Notes under the pieces: model-generated
What the model was told of the DNA's origin: nothing
Databases searched by the model: none
What the model saw: the letters and a program-made list of their open reading frames with translations, nothing else
Made by a program: the position numbers and the translations under genes
Part shown: in pieces, positions 3,291 through 21,807 of the stretch
How the letters are laid out: every line of letters starts with the position of its first letter
Position numbering within the stretch: the first letter of the stretch is position 1
Source: Haloferax litoreum
GTDB lineage: Archaea > Halobacteriota > Halobacteria > Halobacteriales > Haloferacaceae
DNA: 64,000 bases
Direction: 5' to 3'
NCBI RefSeq assembly: GCF_009674605.1
Contig: NZ_WKJO01000001.1
Span: 2,294,001-2,358,000 of the forward strand

Positions 3291-4448
3291 TCAGTCGTCC
3301 GCCGGGGCGGCGGCGCGGGGTGCTGCGAGGTGGTCCAGACAGTCCAGCCACGATTGCATATGCGCTCCGACGTAGTTGAAGAACTCGCCGTTTCGATAGT
3401 CGGACCAGTCGCCGTCGGCGAGTTCGTCGGCCATCGCTTGGAACACGCCGGCGTAGGAGTCGGCGTCACCGCCCACGGTGTCGACGATTTCCCAGAGGTG
3501 TTCGTTGAGTTCGAGACCCGGAACCTCGTTGTTCAGGTCGTCGAACGTCGGGCGCGCGGCCTTGTTGTGCTCACAGAGCGGATAGCCGGTGAGGATGTCC
3601 TTTTCGAGCACGTCGGCGGCCCGCTTGAGGAAGACGCCCGACCAGATGTCGTCGAACCGGCCGACTTCCCACTCGTTGTCGTCCATCGGCAACTGGTAGA
3701 ACGCCGGGATGACTTCTCGCTCGAACGCGAGGTTCATCGAACAGACGGTGAGGTACTGGCCGGGTTCGGCGACGAAGTCGCCATCGAAGTCGCCGAAGTC
3801 GGTTCGGGTCTGTGCTTGTCCCTGCAGGTCGCCGTCCATCAGGATACGGACGGCGTCGAGGTCGGGGACGTTGGTCCACAGGCCCTGCGAGGCGACCACG
3901 TCTCGGAGTTCGCGGGTGTCGGTTTCGACTGTCTCGCCCATCGCCGAGTAGGGGTACCCGCGGGGGTACAGACCGTGTTCGTCGGCGTTCTGGTAGAGGA
4001 CGTTCACCCACTGTTCGTCGCTCGAAACGGACTCCACCTCGTCGGTTCGGTGGAGGTTGTCCATGTGTCGGCCGAAGAAGTCCCACTCGTCGTGCGGAAG
4101 CGTGTCGTCGTCGATGAAGACGCCGTAGTCGAACTCGGGGTGTGCCCACATGTAGAGCAGGCCGAAACTCGTCTGGGCGTGACTCGCCGCGGGGACGAGG
4201 TGCGAGAACTCCTCGATTTCGTGCTCGTCGTACCACTCGTGCCGGGCCGTCTCGTCGAAGACAGCGCCGTCGACGCCCTCGTCGTCGAGCATCGCCGCCA
4301 TCCCCTCGGTGTCACAGAAGTCCTCGGTCACGAGGAGGACGAACAGACGGTCGAGGTCGAAGTCGTGTGCGCGGGCGTTGTCGAAGTAAGACCGCATGCA
4401 CTCGTACTCACGGATGGTGGGTACGACGACGCAGATGTCCGGTTCCAT
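3291..4448 (-). CDS. Reversibly glycosylated polypeptide / alpha-1,4-glucan-protein synthase-like glycosyltransferase
   Basis: A 385-residue soluble protein that resembles the RGP/UDP-arabinopyranose mutase family (GT75-like), annotated in haloarchaea as alpha-1,4-glucan-protein synthase. It opens with the GT-A type nucleotide-binding strand DICVVVPTIREY and has the diagnostic acidic triplet FIDDDTLP at residues 111-118 (DDD 113-115), which would hold the metal-nucleotide sugar. I chose ATG 4448 because the family fold begins there and a TATA-like element lies about 28 bases upstream; the frame stays open to 4541 but adds no conserved sequence. It may glycosylate itself or interconvert UDP-sugar forms. 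A degenerate copy of the iron-operon palindrome lies in its promoter, a possible link to metal regulation. Confidence 0.75.
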   Translation of the reverse strand: MEPDICVVVPTIREYECMRSYFDNARAHDFDLDRLFVLLVTEDFCDTEGMAAMLDDEGVDGAVFDETARHEWYDEHEIEEFSHLVPAASHAQTSFGLLYMWAHPEFDYGVFIDDDTLPHDEWDFFGRHMDNLHRTDEVESVSSDEQWVNVLYQNADEHGLYPRGYPYSAMGETVETDTRELRDVVASQGLWTNVPDLDAVRILMDGDLQGQAQTRTDFGDFDGDFVAEPGQYLTVCSMNLAFEREVIPAFYQLPMDDNEWEVGRFDDIWSGVFLKRAADVLEKDILTGYPLCEHNKAARPTFDDLNNEVPGLELNEHLWEIVDTVGGDADSYAGVFQAMADELADGDWSDYRNGEFFNYVGAHMQSWLDCLDHLAAPRAAAPADD

Positions 4449-11115: not shown

Positions 11116-14100
11116 TTACACCTCGATGGCGCGGGCGAGCATCTCGACTGGGTGTGGCGGTTCTTCGTCCACACCCATGTCTTCGAGTTGCGACCGGCAG
11201 GACGCGCCGGGAGCGACGACGACGTCGCCCGGACTGTCCGCAACCTGCCCTTCGAGGATGTTCCCAATCGCCTTCGACATCGAGTAGTGTTCGGCCTCGT
11301 ACCCGAACGACCCGGACATGCCACAGCACGTCGAGTCGAGTGGGTCCACGTCGAACCCGGCGCGGCGGAGGACGCCCACCGCGTGGTGGTCCTTCTTCGT
11401 GGACTTCTGGTGACAGTGGCCGTGGTAGGTCAGGTAGTCGTTCTGCGGGAGGAACGAGAGCGACTCGTCCAGTCGGAACGTGTCGACGTACTCCATGACG
11501 CCGTAGGAGTTGGCCGCGACGGCCTCCACGTCGTCGCCGGAGAGTAAGTCGAGGTAGTCAGACTGGAACATTACCGCGTCCGAGGGTTCACAGAGGACGA
11601 TGTCCCACCCCTCTTCGACGAAGGGTGCGAGTACCTCGACGTTCTGTTTCGCGTCGGCCCGCGCTTTGTCGAGGAAGCCCTTCGAGTGCGGCGGTCTGCC
11701 GGACCCGGCAACTCCCTCGGGGATGCGAACGTGGACGTTCGCCGCTTCGAGTGCCTCGACGGCCGCTTTCCCCACTTCGGGGTGGTTGTAGTTCGTGTAG
11801 GTATCGGGGAACAACAGCACCTTTCGGTCGGCCTGCGCTTCGGCGATTGCCGCCGACCCGCGCGACGTGAACCACCCCTCGAAGCTCTGTGAGTGGAATT
11901 TCGGCAGTGACCGCTCTTTGGCGATGCCGATGGTCTTCTCCATCACCCAGCGCGCGCCGGGAACCTTCGTCGCGGCGTTGCTGACCGGTGCGAACTTCGA
12001 CCCGAGTTCGGACAGCGAGTCGATGTTGGCGAATATTCGGTCGCGGAGACTGGAGCCATTGCGCTGGTGGTACTCGTGCATCACCTCGGCTTTCATCTTC
12101 GCCATGTCGACTTCGCTCGGGCAGTCTTTCGAACACCCCTTACACCCGACACAGAGGTCCAGCACCTCGTGGACGAACTCGTCTTCGAACATCTCGTCTT
12201 CCGGGAGGCCACCGCTCATGGCCTGCCGAAGCATGTTCGCTCGCCCGCGAGTCGCCTGAATCTCCTCTTCGGCGGCGCGGAACGTCGGACACATGACGCC
12301 ACCGACGGTGGACTGCTGGCCGCGACACCCAGCACACCCGTGACAGAGTTCGACCATGCCCTCGAATCCGTTGTCGTTGTCCCAGTTCAGCGTCGTCTCG
12401 AATCCGGCGTCGAAGTCGTAGTCCGGTGAGAACCGGAGGTTCTCGGTCAGGTCGTAGTCGCCGCAGATGTTCCCCGGATTGAGCAACCAGTCGGGGTCGA
12501 ACTCGCTCTTCAGGTCGCGGAAGACGTTCCAGAGGTGGTCCCCGTACAGTTTCCGGTTCCACTGGGTTCGTGCCCTGCCATCGCCGTGTTCGCCGGAGAC
12601 GGACCCGCCGTACTTGACGACGAGGTCCGTCACTTCGTCGGCGATTTCTTCGAACGTCTCGACGCCTTCGACCGTCTTCGTGTTGACGAGAGGTCGAATG
12701 TGGAGGACGCCCGGCCCCGCGTGTGCGTAGTAGGACGCGAAGGTGTCGTGTTCGTCGAGGATATCCTGGAAGTCGGAGACGTAGTCCGGGAGGTTCTCCG
12801 CCGGGATAGCGGTGTCTTCGATGTACGCGATGTGTTTCTCGTCGGTCGTCCGCGAGAGGAGAATCGGGAGGCCCGACTTACGCATCTTCCAGAACTTCGC
12901 GCGGGTGTCGGCGTCGTGCGCCTCCATGAAGTCGGTCGCGCGACGGTCTTTGGTGGTCACCGAGGCGGACCCGCCGTTGGGTTCGAACGCAGTCCCGTCG
13001 GGGTCGATGACCCTGTCTTCGATGAGGTCTGCGACCTTCTGCTTGCCTGCTTCGTCGGAGTCGGCGTAGAACTCGACGAGGAGTGTCGAATCCGTGCCCT
13101 CGGGAAGCATCCCGACCACGTCGGCGAATTCGGCCGTGTCACGCGCCAAGTCGAGAAGCACGTCGTCCATGACCTCGACCGCCGCGGGTTCGTGTTCGAG
13201 GATGGGTGCCACGTCGTGCATCGCGTCGATGACGTCGTCGTACGTGAGGAGTGCGACGGACGCCGTCTCTGGGATGGGTTCGAGCGAGACAGTCGCCTTC
13301 GTGACGAGTGCCAGCGTCCCTTCGCTCCCGGCGATGAGACGGCCGAGGTTGACGGTGCCCGCGTCCCACTCGTCGTCGATGCCGGTGTCGTCGGGGGTCC
13401 GACGCTCACCGCGCATCTCGTCGACGAGCATGTCGAGGTTGTACCCCGAGACGTTGCGCTTCAGGTCTGGGTAGCGCTCGGAAATCTCGTCTGCCTCGTC
13501 GTCGAGCACCTGTGCGACTTTCGCGTAGATTCGCTGTTCGAGCGAGCCCTGGGGGTCGCCCTTCTCCCGGAGTTCGTCGACGCTCATCTCACCGAACGTC
13601 GTCACCGTGCCATCCGCGAGGACGACTTCGAGTTCTTCGATGTAGTAGTCGGTTTTGCCGTACTTCAGCGAGTGCGCCCCAGTCGAGTTGTTGCCGATTG
13701 CGCCGCCGAGGGCGGAGCGGTCACCCCACGCCGGGTCGGGAGCGAACTTCAGGCCGTGCGGGGCCAACTGTTCGTTGAGTTCACCGAGTCGAACGCCAAC
13801 TTCGGCAGTCGCCGTCCGCGTGTCGGGGTCGACATCTGTGACCTCGCCCATGTGTCGGACGAAGTCGAGGACGACAGCCTCGTTGACCGTCTGGCCTGCG
13901 AGACTCGTGCCACCGCCTCGCGGGAGGACGGGTATCTCGCGCTCGGCGCAGTACTCCATCACCGCCGCCACGTCTGCCGTCGACTTCGGCATGACGACGC
14001 CGATGGGCATCTTCTCGTACGCCGAGGCGTCCGTGGCGTACAGCGTTCTTGTGTAGGTGTCGAATCGCACGTCGCCCTCGACGATGGATTCGAGGTCTTC

Positions 14101-14193
14101 GACCAGCCCTGGCCGCTCTACGTCGTCGTTGACGTAGTCGTAGTTACCCTCCAGTGAGGGGTCGGCGGCCGCTTCGTGCGTGTTAGATGCCAT
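11116..14193 (-). CDS. dld: D-lactate dehydrogenase-type FAD-linked oxidase fused to Fe-S/CCG domains
   Basis: A 1025-residue fusion. The N-terminal half is a GlcD-like FAD-binding oxidase (LPRGGGTSLAGQ nucleotide-binding segment near residue 95) with its C-terminal cap. Then come two Fe-S motifs, CHGCAGCRGQ with a later Cys and CVGCKGCSKDCP. The last third has CCG-type cysteine motifs (HGHCHQKS, TCCGMSGSFGYE) as in GlpC/LutA subunits. Electrons from a 2-hydroxyacid would go from FAD through the Fe-S centres to the quinone pool. The lctP gene 105 bases upstream and the lut-type genes nearby make D-lactate the likely substrate; glycolate or another 2-hydroxyacid is possible. Confidence 0.87.
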   Translation of the reverse strand: MASNTHEAAADPSLEGNYDYVNDDVERPGLVEDLESIVEGDVRFDTYTRTLYATDASAYEKMPIGVVMPKSTADVAAVMEYCAEREIPVLPRGGGTSLAGQTVNEAVVLDFVRHMGEVTDVDPDTRTATAEVGVRLGELNEQLAPHGLKFAPDPAWGDRSALGGAIGNNSTGAHSLKYGKTDYYIEELEVVLADGTVTTFGEMSVDELREKGDPQGSLEQRIYAKVAQVLDDEADEISERYPDLKRNVSGYNLDMLVDEMRGERRTPDDTGIDDEWDAGTVNLGRLIAGSEGTLALVTKATVSLEPIPETASVALLTYDDVIDAMHDVAPILEHEPAAVEVMDDVLLDLARDTAEFADVVGMLPEGTDSTLLVEFYADSDEAGKQKVADLIEDRVIDPDGTAFEPNGGSASVTTKDRRATDFMEAHDADTRAKFWKMRKSGLPILLSRTTDEKHIAYIEDTAIPAENLPDYVSDFQDILDEHDTFASYYAHAGPGVLHIRPLVNTKTVEGVETFEEIADEVTDLVVKYGGSVSGEHGDGRARTQWNRKLYGDHLWNVFRDLKSEFDPDWLLNPGNICGDYDLTENLRFSPDYDFDAGFETTLNWDNDNGFEGMVELCHGCAGCRGQQSTVGGVMCPTFRAAEEEIQATRGRANMLRQAMSGGLPEDEMFEDEFVHEVLDLCVGCKGCSKDCPSEVDMAKMKAEVMHEYHQRNGSSLRDRIFANIDSLSELGSKFAPVSNAATKVPGARWVMEKTIGIAKERSLPKFHSQSFEGWFTSRGSAAIAEAQADRKVLLFPDTYTNYNHPEVGKAAVEALEAANVHVRIPEGVAGSGRPPHSKGFLDKARADAKQNVEVLAPFVEEGWDIVLCEPSDAVMFQSDYLDLLSGDDVEAVAANSYGVMEYVDTFRLDESLSFLPQNDYLTYHGHCHQKSTKKDHHAVGVLRRAGFDVDPLDSTCCGMSGSFGYEAEHYSMSKAIGNILEGQVADSPGDVVVAPGASCRSQLEDMGVDEEPPHPVEMLARAIEV

Positions 14194-14298: not shown

Positions 14299-16044
14299 TT
14301 AGAACACGCCGGGGAACAGCACGTAGCTGAACAGGAGCGTGAGGATGCCGGTGGCCGTCCCGTAGTAGACGAGCGGGATGAGTTCGAGGCGGATGACGCG
14401 TCCCTCTTCGCCGACGAGGCCGACGACTGCGAGCGCAGCGACGACGTTGTGGACGGCGATGAGGTTCCCGATGGCGCCACCGACTGCCTGCGCACCCAGC
14501 ATGATGGTCTTCGGCGTGCCAATCTGGTCTGCAACACCGTACTGGAAGGTGCCGAACAGGATGTCGGAGACGGTGTTCGACCCCGCGAGGAACGCACCGA
14601 ATGCGCCCACGTACGCGGCGAAGAACGGGTACGCCGAGCCAGCGATGCCCGCCATGCCCTCGGAGAGGACGATGAGCATACTGTCACTGCCCGTCGCTGC
14701 GCCGGACTGGAGCATAATCTGCACCGTGGCGACGGCGAACAGCAGTGCGACGACTGCGGGTCCGACCTTCTCGACGGTCTCTGTCCACGACGCCTTGATA
14801 TCTTCACTCCGCATTCCGTGAATCGGAATCGTCACGAGGTGCACTGCGATGAACACTGCACCGGGCAGGTAGAGGAACGCGAAGTCGTTTCCGAGGCCCG
14901 TTCCGAGGATGTTGCTCCACCCGACGACGAACAGGTCACTGGTGATGAAGGCCTTGACAGGGTCCGCGACGCGGGTCACGACGAGCAGGAGCGCGACGAG
15001 CGCGTACGGCGTCCACGCCTTCAGCAGCGACATCTGACCAGCCGATGCCGGCATGGTGGACTGAACCGACCCACCGTCGGCGGCGACAGAGACGTTGTCG
15101 GTCGTCGATTCGCCCGGCTCGATGTCACCGACCCAGTGGTCGGGCCACGCCGACTCGGGCGCGAAGTCCCACTCTTCGTCGGGGTGGAAGAGGCCAGCCT
15201 TGAGCGCGCTAACGGTCACGGCCAGACCGACCATCGACCCGAGGAGACCCGGGAACTCCGGTCCGAGGAAGTACGCGGTCAGGAAGTACGGAACCGAGAA
15301 CGACGCCCACGCGAACAGCGTGAGAGGCAGCACTTCGAGTGCCGGTTTGATGGACCGCTCTTCGCCGAAGAAGCGCGTCATCATGGCGACACCGATGAAC
15401 GGAAGCGCGATGCCGACGACGACGTGGTGCATGGCAGCGAAGACGGCGATTTCGCTGACCCACGCGGCGATGGATTCGAAGTTTCCGGCACCGAGGACTT
15501 CGGTACTAATCGACTCGACGCCCTCGAAGATGTCGATCATCCCGATGATGAGCGGCGTCCCGACGGCACCGAACGTAATTGCCATGAGGTTACCCGTGAG
15601 GGCAACCACGACGGCGGCCAGTGGCGGGAAGCCGAGACCGACGAGAAGCGGACCGACGATTGCGGCCGGGGTACCGAACCCGGCGGCCGACTCGATGAAC
15701 GAGCCCATGAGGAAGACGAGCAGGACGACCTGCACGCGACGGTCCTCACTGATGGACGCGAACCCGTTGTTGATGGAGTCGAACGCGCCCGTCTGCTTGA
15801 GCGTGTACAGGAGCAGGATGGCACCGAAGACGATGTAGAGGATGTTCGCTGCCGTGATGAATCCGTTAATCGTCGCGGCGGCAATCCACGTCGGGGTCAT
15901 GCCCCACCCGACAACCCCTGCGCCGATGGCGACCAGCCATGCGACCGGCATCGCCCGCGTCGCGGGCCAATACCGGCCAACCATGAGGTACGCGATAGTC
16001 AGCAGCGGGAGCAGCGCAATGAGTGCGTTGGTCGCACTAACCAT
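14299..16044 (-). CDS. lctP: L-lactate permease LctP
   Basis: A 581-residue membrane protein of the lactate permease family, with about twelve or more hydrophobic segments and the family signature region [17 protein letters not shown] in the first third and [14 protein letters not shown] near the C-terminus. It takes up lactate with protons or sodium. The ATG at 16044 is preceded by a strong Shine-Dalgarno sequence (16051-16057), unusual here and decisive for the start. A TATA-like element near 16134-16143 gives a leader of some 65 bases. It is transcribed toward dld and diverges from the winged-helix regulator across a 373-base gap with repeated 10-12-mers. Confidence 0.93.
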
Positions 16045-16050
16045 GCTGCT

Positions 16051-16057
16051 CACCTCC
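16051..16057 (-). promoter_or_regulatory. Shine-Dalgarno sequence of lctP
   Basis: GGAGGTG on the minus strand, with six bases between it and the ATG at 16044. Most genes around it have no such site and appear leaderless, so this transcript probably has a translated-by-SD leader. Confidence 0.75.
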
Positions 16058-16208
16058 ACAGCTCGTTCCAGCCGTTTCCATTCCAGATTCGTGCCTGATG
16101 CGGTACATCGTGGCATCTGCTACACAACCTTTGTGATAAATACCTATCGTTCGTTGCTATTCGTGACATATCCTCTGTCGATCCGGCCCCGGTGCTCGGA
16201 ACCCAGTA

Positions 16209-16220
16209 CACTCGTGTGCA
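16209..16220. repeat. Copy 1 of the CACnCGTGTG motif
   Basis: CACTCGTGTGCA, identical over 12 bases to the copy at 16373-16384. It lies about 65 bases upstream of the predicted lctP TATA box. Confidence 0.6.
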
Positions 16221-16329: not shown

Positions 16330-16341
16330 CACACGTGTGAG
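16330..16341. repeat. Copy 2 of the CACnCGTGTG motif (palindromic version)
   Basis: CACACGTGTGAG; its first ten bases form a perfect palindrome and match the other copies except at one position. Confidence 0.55.
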
Positions 16342-16372: not shown

Positions 16373-16384
16373 CACTCGTGTGCA
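16373..16384. repeat. Copy 3 of the CACnCGTGTG motif
   Basis: CACTCGTGTGCA, directly upstream of the TATA-like element of the regulator gene, where an activator or an autoregulator could touch TFB or TBP. Confidence 0.6.
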
Positions 16385-16417: not shown

Positions 16418-17062
16418 ATGGAGGACGAGTCTGGTGCGCGCGCTCGAAACGAGCACGGACAGTACGTGGGACGCATCTCACTGGACGCCGTGTTGGACGT
16501 ATTCCGCGCCCGGGACGACGCTGCTCGTCCACTCACCGCAACGGACGTTTTGGAGGAACTCGATTGCTCTCGTCGGACTGCCCACAACAAACTGAACGAA
16601 CTCGAAGAACGCGGTGACCTCGCCACGAGAAAGGTCGGTGCCCGAAGTCGCGTCTGGTGGATTCCGCTGACCGGGGACGCTAGCGTGGCGACTACGTCCG
16701 CAGAGACGAGTGGCGAGCGTCCGTCCACGAGAGAGTCACCCCACAGAGGGGCGGGGGCCGAGGGCGGACACGGCCTCGACCACCCGCCTGCAGTCTCGAA
16801 CGCCATCGAACAGGCCGACTTGCCGGGAAGTGGGCCGATGCTCGACGCCCGACGCGAGGCACTCTCTGCCGCGTACGAGTATCTCACCGACCATCCCGAA
16901 GCCAAGAAAGCAGACTTCCTCCGCGACGTGTACTACGAGTACCCGGCGGGATTCGAGTCGGCGGAAGGATGGTGGAACGCCATCCAACCCGCGCTCAAGC
17001 AACTCCCCGGTGTGGACCCGCCCGAAGAACGTGGTCACATCTGGCACTTCCTCGGGGGATAA
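16418..17062 (+). CDS. Winged-helix transcriptional regulator of the lactate locus
   Basis: A 214-residue protein. Residues about 20-80 form a winged helix (TATDVLEELDCSRRTAHNKL, then a wing with RKVGARSRVWW). A low-complexity linker with Ser, Thr and Gly-His follows. The C-terminal 60 residues, with KADFLRDVYYEYPAGF and WWNAIQPALKQLPGVDPP, form a compact domain I do not recognise by name but which recurs in haloarchaeal regulators. It diverges from lctP and precedes the Nramp-like and lut-type genes, so local control of lactate genes is the natural guess. Predicted leaderless from a TATA-like site 28 bases upstream. Confidence 0.78.
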   Translation: MEDESGARARNEHGQYVGRISLDAVLDVFRARDDAARPLTATDVLEELDCSRRTAHNKLNELEERGDLATRKVGARSRVWWIPLTGDASVATTSAETSGERPSTRESPHRGAGAEGGHGLDHPPAVSNAIEQADLPGSGPMLDARREALSAAYEYLTDHPEAKKADFLRDVYYEYPAGFESAEGWWNAIQPALKQLPGVDPPEERGHIWHFLGG

Positions 17063-17184: not shown

Positions 17185-19005
17185 ATGAGCGATGGTCGCG
17201 TCGGCCCAGACCCTGACGACCCGTCACGGGTGGAATCGACTGACGAAGACGGCACACGAGACGAACGACTCGAACCGAAGCAGGGTGTCACCGGTGGCGA
17301 CGACGTGTACGCTTCGGAAGTCGAAGGAAAACAGTATCGCGGCACGTGGTACCTTCCGCTTCGCTACAGCGATTTACGAGAGGCTACCGAGTCCGACGAG
17401 TATCCCGAAGCGGGCACGGGTGGGTCGTTCCGCCTCGCCGACCTTCCGCGCGTCCCACGTGTCGGACACGTCGTTGGCCCATCTGCCATCATGCTCGGTG
17501 CCTCTCTCGGAAGCGGTGAGACGCTCTTTTGGCCCGTGTTGACCGCCCAATTCGGGTGGATGGTCTTCTGGGCGTTCGTCGTCGGCGTCTTCACGCAGTT
17601 CGTCATCAACACCGAACTTCAGCGCTGGACGCTCGCGACGGGAGAAAGCATCTTTCGCGCGTTCGCCCGCGTGGGAACATACTGGCCGTGGGCGTTCCTG
17701 TTCGGTGGCCTCGTCAGCCTCGGATGGCCCGGATGGGCCGCCGGGGCCGCACAGGTTGGCGCGACAGCACTGGGATTGAGCGGGTCACTCACCGTCCTCG
17801 GACTCGACGTCGCCACGTGGAAACTCATCGCAGTCGGCCTGATGGCGCTCATCTGGCTCTCGTACCAGACGTCGTCGGTCATGTACAACGCCGTCGAAGT
17901 GTTCCAAATCGGACTCTTGTTCGTCGCCATCGGCGCGACGCTGATGCTCGTCGGCGTCACCGGGTCGTGGGTGGAGTTCAGTAGCATCCCCGACGCCGCG
18001 CAATCTGTCGGGAGTCTCCCGGACGGTATCGACATCGCCGTCTTCCTCGGTGGTCTGGCCTTCGCCGGCGCGGGCGGCTATCTCAACCTCTCGCAGAGTC
18101 TCTGGATGCGCGAGAAAGGCTACGGGATGGGGAACTATCAGGGCCGCGTCAAGAACCCACTCCGGGGCGACGACCCAGAACCAATCGAGCGCGATGGGTT
18201 CACCTTCCGACCGACGGTGACGAACCTCCGCCGGTGGCGTGGGTGGTGGCGCGTCGTCCAACTCGAACACCTCCTGACGTTCGTCGTCGGACTCCTCGTC
18301 GTCGCACCGGCCCTGATGAGCGTCGCTATCCGCTACGCGCCCGGGACGACAACCGATGCCATCCAGATGTGGCTTGGCGACGTCGTCCCACTCCTCGGCC
18401 CCATCGGGTCGTTCCTCGTCTTCGCCATCCTGTTCGTCGCACTCTTCACCACCGAGTACGCCATCGTCGAGTCGTTCGTCCGCAACAGCGCCGACGCACT
18501 CTACGAATCGTACGGCCGTGAGGCGGGGTGGGACCTCCCGAAACTGTTCTGGCGACTGCTCACCGCGTTCTGCGTCTGGGGAATCGTCATCATCCTCGTG
18601 TTCACCTCGCCGTTCGAAGGGCGCGAACCGTTCTTCTTCCTCGTCGTCGGTGCTGCGATGTCGGGCGTCATGATGTGGCCCTACACTGCCCTCGTCCTCG
18701 TGATGAACACGACGCGACTCCCAGAGCACGTCCAACCGGGATGGGGCCGCGTCGCCGCCATGTGGTGGGCTTCCGGGTTCTACGGGTACTTCAGCGTCCT
18801 CCTCGTCGGGACGACGCTGGCCGAGTTCGGCATCGCGGCGTTCGAGACGGCACCAACGATTCTCGGAAGCGGTATCGGCGGGTATGGCCTCTGGGCAGTC
18901 TACTTCGTCGTACAAGCGTATGCAGTCGGGAAATCCGCGGCAGGAAAGCGTGACGCCGCCGGAACCGTCCCCGATGCAGACGAGGCGAGTGGCTGGTTCT
19001 CGTAA
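17185..19005 (+). CDS. Nramp-like (LeuT-fold) transporter lacking the metal-site motif
   Basis: A 606-residue membrane protein with a hydrophilic N-terminal extension of about 85 residues and some eleven hydrophobic segments. It looks like proteins annotated as Nramp divalent-metal transporters, but where Nramp has DPGN in the first membrane helix this protein reads GASLGSGETLFWP. The usual MPH motif of helix 6 is also not evident. The metal ligands are therefore missing and the substrate is probably not a metal ion. It stands between the lactate regulator and the lut-type oxidation genes, so an organic acid substrate such as lactate is a reasonable inference. A GGAGAGG stretch lies 8 bases before the ATG. 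Confidence 0.7.
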   Translation: MSDGRVGPDPDDPSRVESTDEDGTRDERLEPKQGVTGGDDVYASEVEGKQYRGTWYLPLRYSDLREATESDEYPEAGTGGSFRLADLPRVPRVGHVVGPSAIMLGASLGSGETLFWPVLTAQFGWMVFWAFVVGVFTQFVINTELQRWTLATGESIFRAFARVGTYWPWAFLFGGLVSLGWPGWAAGAAQVGATALGLSGSLTVLGLDVATWKLIAVGLMALIWLSYQTSSVMYNAVEVFQIGLLFVAIGATLMLVGVTGSWVEFSSIPDAAQSVGSLPDGIDIAVFLGGLAFAGAGGYLNLSQSLWMREKGYGMGNYQGRVKNPLRGDDPEPIERDGFTFRPTVTNLRRWRGWWRVVQLEHLLTFVVGLLVVAPALMSVAIRYAPGTTTDAIQMWLGDVVPLLGPIGSFLVFAILFVALFTTEYAIVESFVRNSADALYESYGREAGWDLPKLFWRLLTAFCVWGIVIILVFTSPFEGREPFFFLVVGAAMSGVMMWPYTALVLVMNTTRLPEHVQPGWGRVAAMWWASGFYGYFSVLLVGTTLAEFGIAAFETAPTILGSGIGGYGLWAVYFVVQAYAVGKSAAGKRDAAGTVPDADEASGWFS

Positions 19006-19109
19006 CTCTCCACTGTGGGTTCTCGTGAACGCTCGAATCTTTCATCATTAACCGTATCAGGGCTGTAGGAACCCGAAGAACGATTATGCAGAACACGTAA
19101 GCCGTGAAT

Positions 19110-19613
19110 ATGTCAACCGGCACGGTTGCGACGTTCGAGGACTCACTCGAACGACTCGAAGTAGGCTGGACACACGCGTCGCCGGGAGAGGTGGCTACAG
19201 TCCTCCGTGAGGTCTGTGACGACCCTGCCGTCGGCGTCGAACTCCCTTACGACGGTGTGGAACTGCCGTCGTGGGTGAACACTGACCCGACACCTGCCGA
19301 CCTCCGGGACGCGAACGCCGGAATCACGGCGGCGGGAATCGGCATCGCGGACTACGGGAGCGTCGTCGTGCAGGGCACGCCCGACGGCGTCGAACCCGTG
19401 AGTCTGTTCGGTGACCTCCACGTCGCCGTCCTCCGCGAATCGGACATCGTCTCGGGAATGCCCGAGGCGTTCGAATGGCTGGGCGAGGAGTTCCGAACCG
19501 GGCACGATTCGGCCATTATCGCCACCGGACCGAGTGCGACCGCCGACATGGGTGCACTCGTGAAGGGTGCGCACGGCCCCAAAGACGTCCACGTGGTGAT
19601 TCTCGATGAGTAA
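19110..19613 (+). CDS. LUD-domain protein, LutC/LldG-like
   Basis: A 167-residue LUD-domain protein. The motif ITAAGIGIADYGSVVVQG and the end GPSATADMGALVKGAHGPKDVHVVILD are characteristic of LutC/YkgG subunits of L-lactate oxidase complexes. The LUD proteins work with the Fe-S subunits coded next to it. Start: ATG 19110 lies 28 bases after TATA-like GATTATGC and is probably leaderless; GTG 19104 is an in-frame alternative. Its last 8 bases overlap the next gene (ATGAGTAA), which implies tight coupling of the two products. Confidence 0.88.
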   Translation: MSTGTVATFEDSLERLEVGWTHASPGEVATVLREVCDDPAVGVELPYDGVELPSWVNTDPTPADLRDANAGITAAGIGIADYGSVVVQGTPDGVEPVSLFGDLHVAVLRESDIVSGMPEAFEWLGEEFRTGHDSAIIATGPSATADMGALVKGAHGPKDVHVVILDE

Positions 19614-21807
19614 GGCGCGCGAGGCGAAGGCGGCGAAGATTCGCCAGTTGATGGAGACGGAAGGCGACGCCGTCGGAACGAGTACCCGCGGGTTCAATCA
19701 GGGGCGCTACGACTCCGTCCAGACGCTCGACGACTACGAGGGCCTGAAAGCCGAGGCACGAGAGATAAAAGAAGACGCCATCGAGCGACTCCCCGAACTC
19801 CTCGGCCGACTCCGCGAGACCATCGAGGAAAACGGCGGGACGATGTACATCGCCGACGACGCCGCCGACGCGAACCGCTACATCCGTGAGGTCTGCGAAG
19901 ACGAGGAGGCCGAACGAGTCGTCAAGTCGAAGTCGATGACTTCCGAGGAGATAGAGGTCAACGACGAACTCGAAGCGGCAGACGTGGACGTCGTGGAGAC
20001 GGACCTCGGCGAGTGGGTACTCCAAGTCGCCGACGAGACACCGTCGCACATCGTCGCGCCCGCCATCCACAAGTCGCGCGAGGCCATCGCCGACCTGTTC
20101 AACGAGACGTTCGAACCCGCGGAACCGCTGGAGACGGCGGAAGAACTCACCATGTTCGCCCGCGAGCAACTCGGCGAACTCATCGAAGGTGCCGACGTGG
20201 GAATGACTGGTGCGAACTTCATCACCGCCGACACGGGGACGATGGCGCTCGTCACCTCCGAGGGCAACGCGCGTAAGACGGCCGTCGTGCCGGATACACA
20301 CGTCGCCGTCGCCGGTGTCGAGAAAGTCGTCCCGACCGTCGAAGACCTCCAACCGTTCATCGAACTCATCGGCAAGTCGGGAACCGGACAGGACATCACC
20401 TCCTACATCTCGCTTCTCACGCCACCCGTCGAGTCCCCGACGGTCGATTTCGACGACCCCGACACCCCCATCACCGAAACCGAGACCGACCGCGACTTCC
20501 ACCTCGTCCTCATCGACAACGGTCGACTCGACATGCGCGACGACGAGCAGTTGCGCGAGACGCTCTACTGCATCCGGTGTTCGGCGTGTTCGAACGTCTG
20601 CGCCAACTTCCAGCACGTCGGCGGTCACGCCTTCGGCGGCGAGACGTACTCCGGTGGCATCGGGACCGGGTGGGAAGCAGGCGTCGAAGGCCTCGACTCG
20701 GCCGCCGAGTTCAACGACCTCTGTACCGGGTGTAGCCGCTGTACGACTGCCTGCCCGGTCAACATCGACATCCCGTGGATAAACACGGTCGTCCGCGACC
20801 GGGTCAACCGCGGCGACGTGTCGGAAGTCGATTGGCTCGTCGAGGGCCTCACGCCCGACGAAGAACCCGGCGGTGTCAGCCTCCAGAAGCGCTTCTTCGG
20901 CAACTTCGAGACGGCCGCGAAGGTCGGTAGTCTCTTCGCCCCAGTCTCCAACTGGGCCGCCCAATCGTCTGTCTCGCGTGACCTCATGGAGCGCTTCCTC
21001 GGAATCGACGCGCGGCGTGAACTCCCGTCGTTCCAGCGCGAGACACTGAAAGACTGGTTCGACGCGCGGGACTCCCGCGTGCAGGACGCGACGCGAACTG
21101 CCGTCCTCTACCCGGACGTGTACACGAACCACGTACAAGTCGAACGCGGGAAGGCCGCGGTTCGCGCACTCGAAGCACTCGGTGTCGACGTCGTCGTCCC
21201 CGACGTTCGCTCGTCGGGTCGGGCACCGCTCTCGCAAGGGATGATTGCCACGGCCGAAGACCACGCGCACGACGTGTACGCCGGCCTCGCCGAGTATATC
21301 GACGAGGGGAGAGACATCGTCGTCATCGAACCTTCGGACCTCGCGATGTTCGACAGCGAGTACGAGAAGTTCCTCCCCGAGAAGTCGTTCCAGCGTCTCT
21401 CGGAGAACAGTTACGAGGTGATGGAGTACATCTTTGGACTGCTCGAAAACGGTGCACCTGCCGACGCGCTACAGACGGTCGACGGAGCGGAAGTCGCCTA
21501 TCACAGTCACTGTCAGCAGCGAACTCTCGGCCTCGAAGGCCACACCGAAGCCGTCCTCTCGGACCTCGGGTACGACGTGGCCACGTCCGACGTGGAGTGC
21601 TGTGGGATGGCCGGGTCGTTCGGCTACAAATCCGAATACTACGAACTGAGCATGGACGTCGGGTCCGAACTGCGAGAGCAGTTCCAGACGGACGAGACGC
21701 GCGACCGAACCGTCGTCGCGAGCGGGACGTCCTGTCTCGAACAACTCGACTCGCTGTTGCGCAGACCGTCTCGCCATCCGGTCGAACTCGTCGCGCCGCG
21801 ACGGTAG
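19606..21807 (+). CDS. LutB-LutA fusion: LUD plus 4Fe-4S plus CCG domains, L-lactate oxidation
   Basis: A 733-residue protein joining two subunits that are separate in Bacillus. Residues about 50-300 are a LUD domain. A ferredoxin-type part follows, with Cys 322, 325, 328, 332 and 373, 376, 379, 383. The C-terminal third is a CCG domain as in LutA/GlpC (HSHCQQRT and VECCGMAGSFGY). Together with the upstream LUD protein it can form a complete LutABC-type quinone-linked L-lactate dehydrogenase. This gene pair corresponds, as I recall, to HVO_1692/1693 of H. volcanii, reported in L-lactate growth. Its CCG part resembles the C-terminus of the dld product, so the two dehydrogenases share an electron-transfer module. 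Confidence 0.9.
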   Translation: MSKAREAKAAKIRQLMETEGDAVGTSTRGFNQGRYDSVQTLDDYEGLKAEAREIKEDAIERLPELLGRLRETIEENGGTMYIADDAADANRYIREVCEDEEAERVVKSKSMTSEEIEVNDELEAADVDVVETDLGEWVLQVADETPSHIVAPAIHKSREAIADLFNETFEPAEPLETAEELTMFAREQLGELIEGADVGMTGANFITADTGTMALVTSEGNARKTAVVPDTHVAVAGVEKVVPTVEDLQPFIELIGKSGTGQDITSYISLLTPPVESPTVDFDDPDTPITETETDRDFHLVLIDNGRLDMRDDEQLRETLYCIRCSACSNVCANFQHVGGHAFGGETYSGGIGTGWEAGVEGLDSAAEFNDLCTGCSRCTTACPVNIDIPWINTVVRDRVNRGDVSEVDWLVEGLTPDEEPGGVSLQKRFFGNFETAAKVGSLFAPVSNWAAQSSVSRDLMERFLGIDARRELPSFQRETLKDWFDARDSRVQDATRTAVLYPDVYTNHVQVERGKAAVRALEALGVDVVVPDVRSSGRAPLSQGMIATAEDHAHDVYAGLAEYIDEGRDIVVIEPSDLAMFDSEYEKFLPEKSFQRLSENSYEVMEYIFGLLENGAPADALQTVDGAEVAYHSHCQQRTLGLEGHTEAVLSDLGYDVATSDVECCGMAGSFGYKSEYYELSMDVGSELREQFQTDETRDRTVVASGTSCLEQLDSLLRRPSRHPVELVAPRR

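Follow-up and report, generated by a model that had tools for sequence, protein, structure and literature searches.

The window analysed is a 64,000-nucleotide stretch of Haloferax litoreum DNA, in which one open reading frame, running from ATG to stop, encodes a protein of 606 residues termed NRL (Nramp-related LeuT-fold transporter), a proposed importer of lactate-type 2-hydroxycarboxylates. The features of its locus are listed in Table 1. NRL is located between an HTH gene on its 5' side and two lut-type genes on its 3' side, in agreement with the original prediction. The genes for LctP and the YdiJ-type dehydrogenase are divergent from the HTH-NRL-LutC-LutB genes, which are presumably co-transcribed.

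Table 1. Features of the NRL locus (positions in the window)
Feature	Position	Strand	Basis or remark
YdiJ/GlcD-type FAD + Fe-S D-2-hydroxyacid dehydrogenase	11116..14193	-	PF02913, PF01565, Fer4, CCG
LctP-family lactate permease	14299..16116	-	PF02652, E 6e-100
Operator-like CACTCGTGTG	16209..16218		LctP/HTH divergent intergenic region
Operator-like CACACGTGTG	16330..16339		LctP/HTH divergent intergenic region
Operator-like CACTCGTGTG	16373..16382		About 35 bp before HTH start
HTH protein, 214 aa, proposed regulator	16418..17062	+	HTH_20/HTH_11 matches; directly 5' of NRL
NRL, Nramp-related LeuT-fold transporter	17185..19005	+	ORF and translation, NF037982, AF2 model
TM1 motif G-A-S-L-G-S-G-E, residues 105-112	17497..17520	+	Replaces DPGN
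TM6 motif A-G-A-G-G-Y-L-N-L-S-Q, residues 294-304	18064..18096	+	Replaces MPH region
LutC-like LUD-domain protein	19104..19613	+	PF02589; 98 bp past NRL
LutB/LdhH-like LUD + Fe-S L-lactate oxidation protein	19606..21807	+	NF045670, TIGR00273

The matches of the LutB/LdhH-like protein to NF045670 (459 bits; cut-off 800) and TIGR00273 (345 bits; cut-off 444.8) are both below the cut-off. The neighbouring LUD enzymes have genetic support, because deletion of ludBC impairs the growth of H. volcanii on rhamnose, a lactate-yielding sugar (PMC8305020). In the H. litoreum genome, LctP is present in a single copy, GlcD-type (FAD-oxidase_C) genes are present at two places, one of which is the YdiJ-type gene of this locus, and LUD genes are confined to one site. 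The 5-oxoprolinase genes pxpABC are not found among the Pfam-scanned NRL neighbours (LctP, YdiJ-type, HTH, LutC and LutB). The nearest named ortholog of NRL is that of Haloferax profundi (97% identity over residues 1-606), and the H. volcanii ortholog is presumably HVO_1694 or HVO_1695, as expected from synteny, lctP of that species being HVO_1696. Two NRL frames among the whole-genome matches contain one in-frame TGA each (G134:C1:2065176-2066879, and L140 in G368:C99), and in L155 (G368) the open ORF stops at position 3454 while the NRL match extends to position 3475.

NRL is a member of the NCBIfam family NF037982 ('Nramp_1'; 238.9 bits, cut-off 50), which labels it as 'Nramp family divalent metal transporter'. 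In contrast, the Pfam profile PF01566 (Nramp) does not match NRL at E 0.001, and NF037982 is the sole Nramp-type profile that reaches it. Searches of PDB sequences with the NRL protein and with the NRL profile give chance matches only.

NRL is predicted to adopt the Nramp version of the LeuT fold. Its AlphaFold2 model (44 rows) has a mean pLDDT of 86.2 and a pTM of 0.87. In comparison by VIA-align, the best match is DraNramp (6c3i_B; Z 29.0, rmsd 3.1, 380 residues aligned), followed by human NRAMP1/DMT1, EleNRMT (Z 26.2) and the integrative model of YcsG (9a52; Z 26.1). The top 26 rows are all Nramp-family proteins, NRMT, NRAT and YcsG included (Z 23-29), and LAT-type and NSS transporters come after them (Z 19-21). 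The LeuT fold predicted for NRL is also that of MntH, DMT1 and DraNramp, but its identity to canonical Slc11 proteins is 12%. In a 56-row tree, in which several long branches outside the NRL clade are uncertain, the archaeal NRL proteins and the Rubrobacter and Aureimonas proteins form one clade (18 rows, support 100/100), characterized by GSGE and AGAGG and separate from MntH and from the other Nramp-related groups.

In an alignment of NRL with five MntH proteins, four of them haloarchaeal and one from E. coli, D-P-G-N of E. coli MntH corresponds to G109-S110-G111-E112, MPH in TM6 corresponds to the longer Gly-rich sequence AGAGGYLNLSQ, and the TM3 glutamate of Slc11 corresponds to W184. The translation confirms that helix 1 reads GASLGSGE, and the predicted loss of the metal ligands extends to DPGN, MPH and the TM3 glutamate alike. 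The replacements are kept in the orthologs. G109, S110, G111, E112, G295, G297, G298, N301 and Q304 do not vary in 44 archaeal orthologs, and these nine residues are also kept in two bacterial relatives, which come from a clade represented in bacteria by a few plasmid records, except that one has Ser at position 109. By motif tests, NRL lies outside Slc11 and NRMT. The existence of 'Nramp-related' proteins with divergent TM1 and TM6 is already known (PMC12873925, PMC10606218), and those without these motifs have been described as a diverse, paraphyletic group (PMC12873925).

In many other genomes too, NRL lies among genes for the oxidation or transport of lactate and related acids. Homologs of LctP, the YdiJ-type enzyme, LutB or LutC are present within 9-kb flanks at 54 of 64 loci from a collection scan reaching archaea only, as compared with about 1% of genome positions by chance, where this level is a rough estimate from H. 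litoreum copy numbers and genome length rather than from resampling, and where the loci, being orthologs related by descent, are not phylogenetically independent. The chance level is this low because the genome contains one LctP, two GlcD-type places and one LUD site. The count is 56 of 68 when L155, L156, L157 and L159 are included. The original prediction would have failed if the neighbours in other genomes always pointed to metal, and this mapping contradicts that possibility.

Three arrangements recur: HTH-NRL-LutC-LutB opposite LctP-YdiJ; HTH-NRL-fam4, either followed by LctP-YdiJ or preceded by an ABC importer; and YdiJ-NRL-fam9-fam4, which lacks LctP. In three genomes with the last arrangement (G063, G183 and G156), no LctP match is found, and NRL adjoins the YdiJ-type gene. 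The fam4 protein is soluble, has about 140-200 residues and no Pfam match, and occurs with NRL in 40 scanned loci across archaeal classes (for example L120 11269-11832, L155 3460-3891 and L156 8746-9171). It is found also at the non-haloarchaeal loci L155 and L156 (E about 1e-21), and is possibly an accessory protein of NRL. A small membrane protein of about 112-165 residues without a significant Pfam match, fam9/fam40 (L118 10893-11390, L125 10778-11125), follows NRL where LutC/LutB are not directly downstream, and resembles in this the small subunits that partner certain acetate carriers of the SSS family.

The intergenic region between LctP and the HTH gene of H. litoreum contains three CACWCGTGTG sites. 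With one mismatch allowed, this motif occurs 88 times in the LctP-HTH intergenic regions of 30 loci, as compared with 0.84 expected from shuffling, several of these loci being from the same species fetched twice and hence not all independent. It is present 5' of the HTH gene in 31 of 33 divergent arrangements, comprising all 20 in which LctP is the facing gene and 11 of the 13 in which a different gene takes that place. The motif is mostly missing before the HTH gene in Haloarcula-type loci, and an HTH homologue is present at 44 of the 68 loci searched. A role of CACWCGTGTG as a tag of every lactate gene was considered and rejected, as the motif does not precede YdiJ, LutB and LutC in their usual place or the majority of stand-alone LctP genes; what it marks is the start of the HTH gene. 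From its position and the conserved motif, we infer that the HTH protein is a lactate regulator. The CACWCGTGTG sites link NRL with the lctP control region; the HTH protein would bind to them and thereby govern the HTH-NRL-lutC-lutB unit as well as the divergent lctP-ydiJ unit.

These results suggest, with reasonable but not strong confidence, that NRL no longer handles metal and most likely imports a small 2-hydroxycarboxylate, for which lactate is the best candidate at this locus. The form carried is perhaps L-lactate, because NRL is co-oriented with LutCB, whereas the partner of LctP is YdiJ, a dehydrogenase of the D type. NRL and LctP share a divergent promoter region and, presumably, a substrate class, but belong to unrelated families (LctP to PF02652). 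As a counterpoint, LctP adjoins NRL in most loci, which might make lactate import by NRL superfluous.

LAT-type transporters such as Asc1 use the backbone amides of a G(S/T)G sequence in TM1 to bind the carboxyl group of the substrate (PMC10998858). In NRL, the letters G-S-G align with the D-P-G that binds metal in Nramp; the match to the LAT-type motif is one of letters, and a motif this short may recur by chance. Conversion of a metal site into a carboxylate site is chemically reasonable, judged from the letters and the fold, because G-S-G is placed at the position of D-P-G. GASLGSGE is proposed as a carboxylate-binding loop: TM1 would be unwound in the middle, so that the backbone amides of G109-S110-G111 face the carboxylate in the manner of the LAT-type GSG loop, TM6, likewise unwound and rich in Gly (AGAGGYLN), would form the other wall of the site, and the invariant E112 may join in ion coupling. 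NRL shares the Gly-Ser-Gly letters and the fold class (Z 19-21) with Asc1, LAT1, ApcT and BasC, but shows no sequence relation to LAT-type proteins by searches, and differs from them in the Glu that follows GSG and in TM6.

A precedent is provided by PxpT of C. glutamicum, which is required for growth on 5-oxoproline, as confirmed by complementation, and whose closest TCDB relatives are of the NRAMP family (PMC13274462). YcsG of B. subtilis behaves like PxpT, as cited in the same paper. PxpT and YcsG resemble NRL in that an Nramp-family protein is encoded with organic-acid catabolic genes, but their partners are the PxpABC 5-oxoprolinase instead of lactate oxidases, PxpT has 436 residues, and their relation to NRL is here structural only (the YcsG model). 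A change of substrate to lactate or another carboxylate, as first predicted, is well backed, though indirectly, by the neighbours, the promoter motif, the operons without LctP, the TM1 loop and PxpT, whereas this evidence does not single out lactate itself. Nor is the idea wholly fresh, as Nramp-family proteins for 5-oxoproline use have been reported (PMC13274462), but no literature linking an Nramp-related protein with lactate was found. New here are the clade-wide lactate neighbours, the non-haloarchaeal and Rubrobacter loci, the genomes without LctP, the promoter repeats and the TM1 GSG match.

It is rather unlikely, though worth weighing, that NRL carries another organic acid (glycolate, glycerate, pyruvate, a sugar-acid fragment or an amino acid) or exports one. 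At the non-haloarchaeal loci, NRL is accompanied by a MOFRL glycerate-kinase-type gene, together with two D-2-hydroxyacid dehydrogenases at L155, and with a GlcD-type FAD oxidase, CCG/Fe-S proteins and two LUD proteins at L156. Group-B haloarchaeal NRL lies beside genes for a YdiJ-type enzyme, an FAA hydrolase, a glyoxalase and an HpcH/HpaI-family protein, by eye a halo-type malate synthase, and the Aureimonas relative lies near isocitrate lyase. The genome of Halobaculum gomorrense, of group B, lacks LctP. The Rubrobacter indicoceani relative adjoins LutABC, OtnK, PdxA and a lactate-racemase-domain protein; relatives of it were not found in viral contigs. Together with L155 and L156, the Rubrobacter locus gives the lactate-type reading of NRL support from independent lineages. 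Ten of the 64 archaeal loci, four of them short fetches, have no lactate or 2-hydroxyacid gene in reach, and two of these ten have a branched-chain-type ABC importer. In Mnemosynella (L135 5545-8652), a complete TctCBA tricarboxylate transporter is encoded directly 5' of one NRL copy, whose locus is also among these ten. The loci with ABC importers and the copy adjoining TctCBA suggest that the substrate range of NRL is wider than lactate. However, lactate is the simplest common substrate where LctP and LutBC occur. As for export, sequence cannot reveal the direction of transport.

Another reading, which follows the database name, is that NRL is an Fe2+ or Mn2+ importer serving the Fe-S-rich lactate oxidases. 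Its predicted fold is closest to those of metal-transporting Nramps, the adjoining oxidases bear Fe-S domains, and YcsG has also been reported as an Mn2+ importer that raises cellular Mn2+ (PMC10448178). Furthermore, no PF01566 member is found in the whole H. litoreum genome, which would leave it without another canonical-Nramp-type Mn importer. Nevertheless, this reading is improbable, because the metal site has lost its Asp, Asn, Met and His, the Glu of TM3 is likewise gone and TM6 is remodelled, because canonical MntH with DPGN and MPH coexists with NRL as a separate gene in some genomes (L066 in G151 and L067 in G189), and because no metal-homeostasis gene is recognised among the closest neighbours. 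Import of an organic acid is much more likely for NRL than import of a metal. That NRL is an NRMT-type Mg2+ transporter is highly improbable, because, although NRMTs are related to Nramp and their binding site is altered (PMC8806188), and although EleNRMT resembles the NRL model (Z 26), NRL lacks their motif, DxxG in TM1 and TxxA/T in TM6 (PMC8806188), has no Asp at the TM1 site, and has neighbours concerned with organic acids.

Other Nramp-related clades were observed beside catabolic genes of their own. A GSGE/GVGADE clade lies by sugar-acid genes (L157 4521-5945, L164 5956-7377 and L166 5938-7311), its partners being UxaA in Rubrobacter, where a second Nramp-related gene of R. indicoceani lies beside it, OtnK/PdxA in Streptomyces albus and mannonate dehydratase in Halocatena salina. 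A GPGT clade (TM1 GPGTVTTAS, TM6 VVGYNLFLH) is found at the haloarchaeal loci L176, L183-L186, L188 and L191. Its genes are located directly 5' of hydantoinase/oxoprolinase A and B, as confirmed by Pfam for L185 and recognised by eye at the remaining six loci. An RHH protein and a gene of arylmalonate-decarboxylase/Asp-Glu-racemase-like type often accompany them, and this setting again suggests an organic substrate. A GGGEVL/GAGFGP gene (L071 8854-10251) lies near genes that by eye are of glutamine synthetase, amidotransferase, agmatinase and aminotransferase type. Each sub-clade has its own catabolic partners, lactate/glycerate oxidation for NRL, sugar-acid genes for GSGE/GVGADE and hydantoinase A/B for GPGT, as PxpT has 5-oxoprolinase. 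It may be, and we propose it tentatively, that 'Nramp-related' proteins are mainly importers of organic solutes, chiefly carboxylates, with an APC-like TM1 loop, and that DPGN and MPH arose late, in Slc11.

The divalent-metal name that the NCBIfam 'equivalog' model gives to the NRL clade is copied across genomes. If this clade imports lactate-type acids, the metal annotation is wrong for the whole group, haloarchaea gain a second lactate route, and the Nramp fold gains a case in which one site switches between an organic anion and a metal cation. This bears on the cargo of the ancestral Nramp relatives before the metal site existed, and if Nramp-related proteins mainly import organic solutes, many 'divalent metal transporter' annotations would be wrong.
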